64,000 nt of DNA. It comes from Mesotoga sp. BH458_6_3_2_1. Its GTDB lineage: Bacteria; Thermotogota; Thermotogae; Petrotogales; Kosmotogaceae. The DNA lies in assembly GCF_003664995.1 (NCBI RefSeq), contig NZ_JFHL01000029.1, positions 62,001-126,000 on the forward strand, written 5' to 3'. Below are positions 54,733 to 57,911 of the stretch, one piece after another. Position numbers and translations under genes: made by a program. The stretch's first letter is position 1. Each line of letters starts with the position of its first letter. The notes under the pieces were generated by a model. It was not told the origin of the DNA. It did not search any database and saw only the letters and a program-made list of their open reading frames with translations.

Positions 54733-55365
54733 CTATTTTCGCATTCCTTTCGCCAGTCTTCCTCCGGTGAACTGGAGAAGCTGACTGATCGCCACGAGAA
54801 CGATCACAGCGTAGAGAACTACGTCCCACTGGAACCGGTAGTAACCGTAGTTGATCGCCAGCTGACCAAGACCTCCGGCCCCGACCGCGCCCGCTATGGC
54901 GGTGTAGGTCACGAGATTGATCAAGAGTACGGTTATGTTGCCGATCTGATCGGGCAGTGTTTCCGGTATCAGAACCTTAGTGACCATCTGCCACTTGTTC
55001 AGTCCCATCGAGTTTGACGAATCGATTATTCCCGAAGGAACGGCGTTGAAAGAATTCTCCGAAAGCCTAGCCATGAAAGGTATAGCTGCAATAGTAAGAT
55101 TGAAGATCGCAGCGTTCGGCCCAATTATCGTCCCCATTACGTTTTTCGTAACGGGAATCAGGAGCAACACGAGAATAATGAAAGGTATCGATCTGAAGAT
55201 ATTTACTAACAGGTCAAGCAGCGCATAGAGGCTTTTCAGCCTTCGCGATCTTGAACAGAGGTAAAGGCCTACACCAAGCGGAATACCGAGTAGAGTTGCC
55301 AGGAAACCGGAGAGAAGAAGCATGTATAAGGTTTCTAGCGTCGCCTTAAATATTTGTGAGAACAT
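54733..55365 (-). CDS. metI: Methionine ABC transporter permease MetI
   Basis: A 210-residue inner-membrane permease with five segments, the MetI channel of the MetNIQ importer. LYMLLLSGFLATLLGIPLGVGLYL starts the transmembrane domain; the EAA coupling loop is NSFNAVPSGIIDSSNSMGLNKWQMVTKVLIPETLPDQIG. Length is normal. Its ATG overlaps the metN stop by one base (TGATG), so translation is coupled. Confidence 0.92.
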   Translation of the reverse strand: MFSQIFKATLETLYMLLLSGFLATLLGIPLGVGLYLCSRSRRLKSLYALLDLLVNIFRSIPFIILVLLLIPVTKNVMGTIIGPNAAIFNLTIAAIPFMARLSENSFNAVPSGIIDSSNSMGLNKWQMVTKVLIPETLPDQIGNITVLLINLVTYTAIAGAVGAGGLGQLAINYGYYRFQWDVVLYAVIVLVAISQLLQFTGGRLAKGMRK

Positions 55366-56354
55366 CAGCGGACCTCCTCGAGAAAGAAGACGGAGTCTCT
55401 TAGTTTCTCTATGAACTGATCCTGTTTATGCCCGTCAATCGCGATGATCATTGTTCCGAAAGGCCCGTTCTTCAGCTCTTCGATCTTCCCGTACAGAATG
55501 TTGATCATTATATCGAACTCACTTGCTATCTCCCACAAGACGGGCTCGTGGGTACGCTCCCCCCAGAAGAGTACTCTCAAGAGTCTCTTCTGTCGCGAAA
55601 GAACACTTCTTTCCAGCTCGAGAGGGCTTCCAAAGTCGCTCACTTCATTGTTCTCGATCTTGACGAAGAATTCATGCGTAGGTCCGAAGAAGTGCAGCTT
55701 CCCATTCCGCAAGTACGCGACTCTGTCACAGGTTCTCTTGATGACATCCATATCGTGGGTGACCACCGCGAAGGTAACGCGGCGTCTTTCATTGAGGTTC
55801 ACCACGAGGTCGAGAAGTCTGCCCGTAGTCCTCGGGTCGAGGGCGGAAGTGGGTTCGTCGAGAAGAATCAACTTCGGATTCATTACAAGAGCGCGAGCGA
55901 TCGCAGCTCTCTGCTGTTCGCCGCCGGAGAGCTGAGAAGGGTAGGCGCCCAGTCTATGCTCAAGTCCGAGTTCGGAAACGATACTCATAACTCTTTCCTT
56001 GATCTCACTCCTGCTGACTCCCTGAATTTTCAGAGGGAAGGCGATGTTCTGGTAGACTGTTCTGTAGCGAAACAGGTTGTAGCTCTGAAAAACTACTCCT
56101 ATTTTCTTCCTGATGCTCCTCACTTTGCTTTCGTTAAGCCCGACTATGTTTTGGCCATCGAACATGATCGATCCGCTGTCCACCGGCTGGAGAAGGTTGA
56201 GCGTGCGGAGCAGAGAGGTTTTCCCTGCTCCAGACAACCCTACGATTCCGACAATCTCGCCCTCTTCGATGGAGAAGCTGACATCATCGAGGATCTTTCT
56301 CCTTCCCGATTTGTCTTCGAAAGAAAGGTTGAGTCTGTCAACGCTCAGTATCAA
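55365..56354 (-). CDS. metN: Methionine ABC transporter ATP-binding protein MetN
   Basis: A 329-residue ATPase of the MetN family. Walker A GLSGAGKTSLLRTL, Q-loop VFQSYNLFRYRTVYQN, signature LSGGEQQRAAIARAL, Walker B LILLDEPTSALD, H-loop VVTHDM. The C-terminal 75 residues form a NIL domain (RVLFWGERTHEPVLWEIASEFDIMINILYGKIE), the regulatory site where methionine binds and inhibits transport in E. coli MetN. It follows metQ by 11 bases. Confidence 0.93.
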   Translation of the reverse strand: MILSVDRLNLSFEDKSGRRKILDDVSFSIEEGEIVGIVGLSGAGKTSLLRTLNLLQPVDSGSIMFDGQNIVGLNESKVRSIRKKIGVVFQSYNLFRYRTVYQNIAFPLKIQGVSRSEIKERVMSIVSELGLEHRLGAYPSQLSGGEQQRAAIARALVMNPKLILLDEPTSALDPRTTGRLLDLVVNLNERRRVTFAVVTHDMDVIKRTCDRVAYLRNGKLHFFGPTHEFFVKIENNEVSDFGSPLELERSVLSRQKRLLRVLFWGERTHEPVLWEIASEFDIMINILYGKIEELKNGPFGTMIIAIDGHKQDQFIEKLRDSVFFLEEVR

Positions 56355-56365
56355 AGCATCAAACC

Positions 56366-57145
56366 TCAGAAAACGGGCACTACCGCACCATCGTACTTTT
56401 CGTTTATGAAGTCTCTTACCTTCTCCGACGTCAACACACTGATGAGAGCTTCGAGCCAGGCTGCATCTTTGTCAGTCTCTCGAATTGTGATTATGTTTGC
56501 GTATGGAGATTCTGCGCCCTCAATGAACTCCGAGTCTTTGACTGCATTAAGGTTTATGGTAAGCGCGTAATTGGTGTTTATTACGGCTCCGGCGACGGTC
56601 TTGTCGTCTGTGTACACCCTTGGAATGAATCCGGCCTCGATTTCCACAAAGGTCAACTGCTTAGGGTTTTCCTTGATGTCTAGAACTGTAGATTCCAGTT
56701 TTGAAGGATCCTTAAGTACGATAAGCCCGTTGTTGTGAAGGAGAATGAGCGCCCGCCCTTCGTTCGTCGGATCGTTCGGAACTGCGATCTTATCACCTGG
56801 CGCGAGCTCTGAAAGAGGTTTCTTGAGAAAGAACCCCATTGGTTCGACGTGAATAGCCTTTGCTGAGACCAAACCTTTTATTCCTCTTTGAGAAGTGAAG
56901 GACTCAAGATACGGTACGTGCTGGAAATAATTAGCATCCAGTTCCCCTGTGGAAAGGGCAATGTTTGGAAGAACATAGTCATTGAACACAATGATTTCCA
57001 GTTCGTAGCCCAGCTCGGCGAGGTCGGCCTTGATTACTTCCAGAATTTCGGCGTGGGGTACTGGAGTGGCGCCAATTCGGATCTTCGTGGTACCGAACGC
57101 AAATACGACTCCCAGTAAAACGATCAACACAAGAAACTTCTTCAT
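56366..57145 (-). CDS. metQ: Methionine-binding protein MetQ
   Basis: A 259-residue periplasmic receptor of the NlpA/MetQ family: signal peptide KKFLVLIVLLGVVFAFG, then IRIGATPVPHAEILEVI, LDANYFQHVPYLE and DPTNEGRALILLHNNGLI. It delivers methionine to MetNI. No lipobox Cys is present, unlike most MetQ proteins, so it should be a soluble or signal-anchored periplasmic protein. ATG 57145 follows GGAGGG by six bases; directly upstream stands an intrinsic terminator and a leader peptide frame, so expression depends on terminator read-through. Confidence 0.93.
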   Translation of the reverse strand: MKKFLVLIVLLGVVFAFGTTKIRIGATPVPHAEILEVIKADLAELGYELEIIVFNDYVLPNIALSTGELDANYFQHVPYLESFTSQRGIKGLVSAKAIHVEPMGFFLKKPLSELAPGDKIAVPNDPTNEGRALILLHNNGLIVLKDPSKLESTVLDIKENPKQLTFVEIEAGFIPRVYTDDKTVAGAVINTNYALTINLNAVKDSEFIEGAESPYANIITIRETDKDAAWLEALISVLTSEKVRDFINEKYDGAVVPVF

Positions 57146-57163: not shown

Positions 57164-57193
57164 AAAAAAAGGGCGTCTCCTTTGAGACGCCCT
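57164..57193 (-). terminator. Attenuator terminator in the metQ leader
   Basis: Transcribed strand reads AGGGCGTCTC-caaa-type loop-GAGACGCCCT followed by seven U residues: stem plus 57170-57179 with 57184-57193 (10 pairs), U-tract 57164-57170. It lies 11 bases before the metQ ribosome binding site, so it ends transcription before the operon unless disrupted. Confidence 0.9.
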
Positions 57194-57215
57194 GCTTCTA
57201 TTTTCTCAGGTACAG

Positions 57216-57296
57216 CTAAGCACCCGAAGAAACAAGGGCGTTGCCGTACATCATCATAGCTATTCTGTTTTTCTCTCTAAAAGTCTCTTCAGTCAT
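57216..57296 (-). CDS. Methionine leader peptide of the metQNI operon
   Basis: A 26-codon frame, ATG 57296-57294 to TAG 57218-57216, with GAGGT six bases upstream. It begins MTEETFREKNRIA and then has three consecutive Met codons (14-16) followed by YGNALVSSGA. The probability of three adjacent ATG codons by chance is low, and their place, just before the competing RNA stems and a terminator, is that of the control codons of trp, his or leu leader peptides. Shortage of charged elongator tRNA-Met would stall ribosomes there and permit metQNI transcription. I infer regulation; the peptide itself probably has no other function. Confidence 0.7.
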   Translation of the reverse strand: MTEETFREKNRIAMMMYGNALVSSGA

Positions 57297-57322
57297 AGGA
57301 AAACCTCGCGATTATTTAGCTC

Positions 57323-57352
57323 ATTATAGCCTATCGGCTCTTTCCAAAGCAA
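57323..57352 (-). promoter_or_regulatory. Promoter of the metQNI operon
   Basis: On the minus strand TTGCTT (plus 57347-57352), 18-base spacer, TATAAT (plus 57323-57328). Transcription would begin near 57316, about 20 bases before the leader-peptide ATG. Confidence 0.65.
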
Positions 57353-57391: not shown

Positions 57392-57766
57392 TCAGTTGAC
57401 CTCATTATAAGTGGAGACTCTTATGAACCGTTTGCCGTCATCTTTCTCTTTGTAGCAGGCTTTTAGAAGTCTGCAGCTGGTAGTCTTAGGGTCTTTGCAG
57501 ATCAGGAAGGTGAACGAGAGATCCTTCGCTCTTCCCTTAAGCAGTTCCATGCTTAATGTGGAAAGCAGGCTGTCGAGCCGCTTCTCTTCCTTCTGACCAT
57601 ACATTCTGGAATTCTCGTCGGTCTTCACCATTTCGTTCCAGAGATTCTCCGTGATAACCACAGGTAATTTGATTCCAACGCTCTTCGCATAAGGTGTAAC
57701 ATCAATCATGCCCCCATCCATTACACGAATCTTCGGGGATCCGACTGATGCTTCTCCGATGCTCAT
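57392..57766 (-). CDS. Small conserved-looking protein, possibly DUF6573-like
   Basis: A 124-residue soluble protein. The core GGMIDVTPYAKSVGIKLPVVITENLWNEMV resembles a family I recall as DUF6573 (DVT-x-A-x-x-xG-x-x-P-V-x-T-x-x-W), found on chromosomes and plasmids without known function. The middle is a charged helix, the C-terminus (FTFLICKDPKTTSCRLLKACYKEKD) has three Cys. I start at ATG 57766, six bases after GGAGGTG; the frame is open 23 codons further but without a binding site. AT-rich repeats gttatggtaataataac lie just upstream and may be an operator. Confidence 0.6.
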   Translation of the reverse strand: MSIGEASVGSPKIRVMDGGMIDVTPYAKSVGIKLPVVITENLWNEMVKTDENSRMYGQKEEKRLDSLLSTLSMELLKGRAKDLSFTFLICKDPKTTSCRLLKACYKEKDDGKRFIRVSTYNEVN

Positions 57767-57911
57767 TAATAGCACCTCCATAATAGTGTTATTATTACCA
57801 TAACATTCTAGAAAGGCGGTTGCAAAGGCAAACAAGAGACTCCCCGGATGTCTGGAGCTGTTTAGGCCGGTATTTCTGACAAAGCCTCTGGAAAGCGTTA
57901 CAATTCGAGTC

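Follow-up and report, generated by a model that had tools for sequence, protein, structure and literature searches.

Leader architecture upstream of metQ

The window analyzed here is a 64,000-nucleotide stretch of a Mesotoga sp. contig, and the features described below lie on its minus strand. It contains a methionine importer operon with the gene order metQ-metN-metI. metQ (56366..57145) encodes the methionine-binding protein of an ABC importer (Pfam NlpA lipoprotein, 1.3e-81), metN (55365..56354) an ATPase with a NIL domain, and metI (54733..55365) the permease. These assignments are based on Pfam and on best NCBIfam matches to MetQ, MetN and MetI, all of which are below the curated cut-offs. 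Further upstream, beyond the promoter described next, is a 147-aa ORF (57392-57835) with a weak match to DUF6573 (E 2e-4, below cut-off).

The region preceding metQ begins with a promoter (57323..57352) composed of a -35 box TTGCTT at 57352-57347 (3/6 consensus match), an 18-nt spacer and a -10 box TATAAT at 57328-57323 (6/6). A TATAAT box is found at the same place in 9/9 genus members whose upstream regions were compared. The promoter is followed by a GAGG ribosome-binding site, located 7 nt upstream of the ATG at 57296, and by a leader peptide ORF (57216..57296) of 26 codons plus TAG that encodes MTEETFREKNRIAMMMYGNALVSSGA. Three adjacent AUG (Met) codons, ATGATGATG at 57257-57249, are in frame with this ORF and constitute the predicted stall site. 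A preliminary description of this DNA had listed the promoter, the 26-codon frame with a good ribosome-binding site and the three Met codons, and all of them are present in the sequence.

Three overlapping helices compete in the leader: a protector, an antiterminator and a terminator. The protector hairpin (57249-57236 with 57225-57210; -16.4 kcal/mol by folding) has a 5' strand whose first nucleotide is the G of the third and last Met codon, and a 3' strand that contains the leader stop codon (57218-57216). The overlap of the stop codon with a stem arm had been noted before; the helix itself had been placed at 57243-57249 with 57210-57216, where it indeed occurs, although it is longer. The antiterminator was identified by complementarity. 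Its 5' arm, 1b (57228..57241), reads ACGCCC, a bulged U and UGUUUCU, and its 3' arm, AGAAGCAGGGCGU (57187..57199), overlaps the 5' arm of the terminator (arm 3). Pairing of 57241-57228 with 57199-57187 yields 13 bp with one bulge, at about -19 kcal/mol as a duplex; the 7 bp originally proposed, 57235-57241 with 57187-57193, had captured this pairing but not its full length. The intrinsic terminator (57164..57193) has the sequence AGGGCGUCUC-AAAG-GAGACGCCCU at 57193-57170, with a 10-bp stem (57193-57184 / 57179-57170), an AAAG loop and a U-tract extending to 57164. Ten pairs and seven T had been counted correctly, except that the first T of the run (57170-57164) is paired. The end of the terminator stem is about 24 nt from the metQ ATG (57145).

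Leader-like arrangements of this kind are not a general feature of the genome. ATGATGATG occurs 53 times, corresponding to about 50 other sites once duplicates are merged, and none of these sites is leader-like. The single other site with a terminator after it is out of frame and inside a gene. Inspection by eye of the upstream regions of the three PF01053 genes of this genome also revealed no Met-run leader.

Recurrence of the leader in related genomes

Searches for MetQ covered 61, 38 and 103 genomes, and the upstream regions of the matches were then inspected. This yielded 23 leaders in 19 genomes: all nine genus members having metQ (G002 has no metQ match), two other genera of the window's family (G010 and G013), a second family of the order (seven genomes) and a different order (one genome, G041). 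The leader also precedes a second metQ paralog (metQ2) in four genus members, namely the window's genome G000 and G003, G008 and G007 (loci L032, L033, L034 and L036, respectively). Beyond the locus originally described, the leader is thus found with a paralog, in a further family of the order and in a single genome outside that order. The metQ2 leader is shorter, with Met-Val-Met and a TTG start. Neither metN nor metI was recognized directly downstream of metQ2 in G000.

In-phase Met codons are found in 23/23 leaders, as MMMM, MMM, MNMIM, MCM or MVM. A start codon, a Shine-Dalgarno-like sequence and an open frame are likewise present in 23/23, the start in G010 being uncertain. The rest of the leader peptide is divergent, and the nucleotide sequence of the stretch holding the Met codons is not kept. 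Spacings such as ATGAATATGATAATG, ATGTGCATG and ATGGTGATG preserve codon phase but not sequence, and the leaders of G003 and G008 differ by one whole-codon indel. As the preliminary description had anticipated for an attenuator, the relatives retain the terminator in combination with the Met run and the frame, and not by itself.

The helices recur as well. In every leader, the segment that pairs best with terminator arm 3 is 1b, which starts 3-10 nt downstream of the Met run, and the Met run and the terminator are separated by 49-69 nt. In the leaders that were folded, the protector hairpin is at or adjoining the last Met codon. The arms are group-specific (for example ACGCCC/GGGCGU, ACCCCGU/ACGGGGU, GUAACCG/CGGUUAC, ACCGGUCUUCU/AGAAGGCCGGU and GCAACCGA/UCGGUUGC), and the helices vary from group to group in both length and sequence. 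Between groups, 1b, 3 and 4 have unrelated sequences but change in concert. Other genera form both alternative helices from different sequences, a pattern that the preliminary description had named as support. Compensating change was judged for whole helices between groups, not column by column. At that level, the predicted antiterminator is mutually exclusive with the terminator and is kept by compensating change.

Complementarity between 1b and arm 3 was assessed against dinucleotide shuffles in eight groups, with one member each. The match has p 0.0015 to 0.026 in 7/8 groups and p 0.25, not significant by itself, in G013. Combined over the eight groups, p is about 3e-9, with the metQ2 group entered by the best of the three members tested (the other two are marginal, with p 0.06 and 0.09).

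These comparisons bear on two other ways of reading the region. The leader ORF could be an ordinary small gene ending in a terminator of its own, with metQ transcribed from a separate downstream promoter, and a terminator after a short ORF would be expected in that case. However, the interval between the terminator stem and metQ holds the metQ ribosome-binding site and has no room for a promoter, the peptide is not conserved outside the Met run, and the antiterminator complementarity recurs; we regard a small gene as extremely unlikely. The second reading is a riboswitch of a new kind that binds methionine or SAM, in which the AUG run and hairpin are parts of an aptamer and the ORF is incidental. 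It agrees with the near-invariance of the sequence from Met run to terminator within the genus, and with the presence of SAM-I riboswitches at the same place in relatives. Beyond the genus, though, only the in-phase Met codons are conserved, the Met-run spacings hold phase and not sequence, and an open frame with a ribosome-binding site occurs in all leaders. Nor is there a match among known families: Rfam gave none on the leader region at E up to 1, no T-box covariance model matched the leader, and no riboswitch was found at the gathering threshold in the relatives' leader-bearing loci. This is the outcome that the preliminary description had looked for in an attenuator, and a riboswitch is very unlikely here.

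Proposed mechanism

The combination of a mini-gene with Met codons and a switchable terminator suggests that methionine shortage is probably sensed through the stalling of a ribosome. We propose, with a probability of about 0.88, that the leader is a ribosome-mediated transcription attenuator that senses the charging of elongator Met-tRNA and controls metQNI. The attenuation initially suggested was of the trp, his or leu type; the ribosome-mediated design is supported, whereas the antiterminator strand is found to be the 5' strand of the protector.

When methionine is sufficient, the ribosome would pass the AUG run and cover 1b, terminator 3:4 would form and transcription would stop before metQ. 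In the genus, a ribosome at the stop codon would cover most of 1b. The second family has its stop codon further on, 42-51 nt past the Met run; there, the protector hairpin would reform behind the ribosome, again leading to the terminator. When charged tRNA-Met is scarce, the ribosome would stall on the AUG run, covering the protector base (1a) and ending just short of 1b. With the last Met codon in the A site, the edge of the ribosome is expected next to the start of 1b, based on the general footprint. 1b could then pair with arm 3 ahead of the synthesis of arm 4, such that the terminator would be prevented and the importer transcribed.

Folding of partial transcripts extending to arm 3 gave about 7-17 expected antiterminator pairs with a ribosome on any Met codon, and at most 1 with a ribosome at the stop codon. 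The complete transcript, by comparison, prefers the terminator in all states, the stalled ribosome included, at 2-13 kcal/mol below the antiterminator state. Since the terminator is favored at equilibrium, the switch must be kinetic and decided during transcription. The complete trp transcript probably prefers the terminator as well. Without a ribosome, equilibrium folds of partial transcripts also favor 1b:3 over the protector in most leaders. In these folds, the antiterminator forms without the need for protector disruption, although the protector hairpin itself is present.

The leader might respond to slow translation or initiation in general, as caused by effects on initiator tRNA, antibiotics or formylation, and not to elongator Met-tRNA charging. 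Because proteins also start with methionine, starvation hits both processes, and in Xanthomonas uncharged initiator tRNA is sensed by a SAM-I riboswitch (PMC7270179). Set against this are the internal Met clusters, with up to four in a row, that occur in every leader at a fixed distance from the antiterminator. These clusters and their fixed distance indicate elongation at AUG, and general sensing is an improbable explanation. For an attenuator that reads elongator charging, methionine starvation could nevertheless blunt the response by also lowering initiation on the leader. This raises the question of how a translation-based sensor works when starvation also cuts initiation.

Relation to SAM-I riboswitches and methionine synthase

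Within the order, 29 genomes have metQ, and 27 were compared, as G014 and G033 have no readable upstream sequence. The leader lies upstream of metQ in 18/27 and a SAM-I riboswitch (RF00162) in 9/27, at the same position before the orthologous gene; no genome has both and none has neither. This mutual exclusivity before orthologous metQ ties the leader to methionine. No SAM-I riboswitch was found anywhere in the genomes of the window's family, and among the leader genomes of the order, one occurs elsewhere only in G037, an assembly with 6% contamination. SAM-I riboswitches sense SAM and not tRNA charging, and the leader has no sequence or structure match to them. As a separate observation, tandem repeat units of about 100 nt with TTATAGGGCGGCAGCCCTAACAA or close variants lie between the SAM-I riboswitch and metQ at L014 and L023.

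The two types of genome also differ in methionine synthase. MetH is found in 9/9 SAM-I genomes and in 2/18 leader genomes (G026 and G036; Fisher p 1e-5, kinship uncorrected), and MetE was found in none of 38 genomes. For the lineage with the leader, which apparently lacks methionine synthase, uptake is therefore probably the main source of methionine. The window's genome has no match to MetH (PF02574) or MetE (PF01717), which suggests dependence on imported methionine, and from its gene content the organism is a probable methionine auxotroph. An alternative methanethiol route to methionine through a PF01053 enzyme is possible; the best PF01053 member (L204) looks like methionine gamma-lyase.

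Comparison with known regulators

According to textbooks, bacteria control their methionine genes through MetJ, SAM riboswitches and T-boxes. In Actinobacteria, a survey detected no conserved RNA structure ahead of the methionine operons (PMC1262725). A 2010 survey listed leader-peptide attenuators as known from Proteobacteria and Actinobacteria and itself described histidine leaders in Firmicutes (PMC2965389), where histidine leader peptides precede hisS/hisZ and his genes (PMC2965389, PMC9413887). These histidine leaders likewise lie outside Proteobacteria and Actinobacteria and replace other regulators in some lineages, but they carry His codons, whereas the leader described here carries Met codons and stands in place of SAM-I riboswitches. 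In comparison with the trp, his, leu, ilv, thr and phe attenuators of Proteobacteria and Actinobacteria, it differs in having Met codons, an importer as its target and a host in Thermotogota.

The roles of the protector strands differ too. In trp, the antiterminator is formed by the protector 3' strand (II, 2:3; PMC1183508). The present leaders do not follow this layout, as their arm 3 pairs best with 1b, in the 5' strand. Met T-boxes and the Xanthomonas SAM-I riboswitch that senses tRNA-fMet (PMC7270179) also sense methionyl-tRNA status for methionine genes; unlike the Met leader, they bind uncharged tRNA directly and use no leader peptide.

The preliminary description knew of no methionine leader-peptide attenuator in Thermotogota, and none was found in the open-access literature searched, although an earlier in-silico mention is possible. 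As far as that literature shows, the amino acid (Met), the phylum (Thermotogota) and the different use of the protector strands are new. A leader-peptide sensor for the amino acid that starts every protein is thus undescribed in the literature searched, and it would extend classical attenuation to another phylum. It would also represent a natural interchange of SAM and tRNA sensing, associated with the absence of methionine synthase.

Other Met-rich leaders

Met-rich ORFs were also seen upstream of metQ in Spirochaetales, in 15/30 loci inspected (L173, L174, L177, L178, L179, L184, L187, L189, L191, L195-L198, L200 and L203). They typically end in MMMPxRA before the stop codon, and examples are MTTSSIITMCMSSMMMPVWA and MTTYSISTMCMSSMMMPARA, each followed by a stop. 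A conserved small hairpin (GATGCCC..GGGCAT) lies on the last Met codon and is followed by another, variable hairpin. None of these leaders shows a clear U-tract terminator. In the leaderless Spirochaetales loci printed, metQ follows what looks like metI. The Met-rich ORF may be a second, independent methionine leader, possibly one that is Rho-dependent or has a weak terminator.

It is rather probable that methionine leader-peptide attenuation is an undescribed class that has evolved multiple times. One member would be the inverted protector/antiterminator type that replaces SAM-I in Thermotogota lineages lacking methionine synthase; the other would be the Met-rich leader of Spirochaetales metQ, which looks unrelated and has no obvious intrinsic terminator.

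Met-rich leader ORFs precede metQ at L054, L064 and L075 too. Upstream of metQ at L065, from a Fusobacteriaceae MAG, a small ORF ending in FIMPLCGI has one internal Met codon, on which a hairpin (ATGCCGC/GCGGCAT) lies; this arrangement resembles the one in Spirochaetales.
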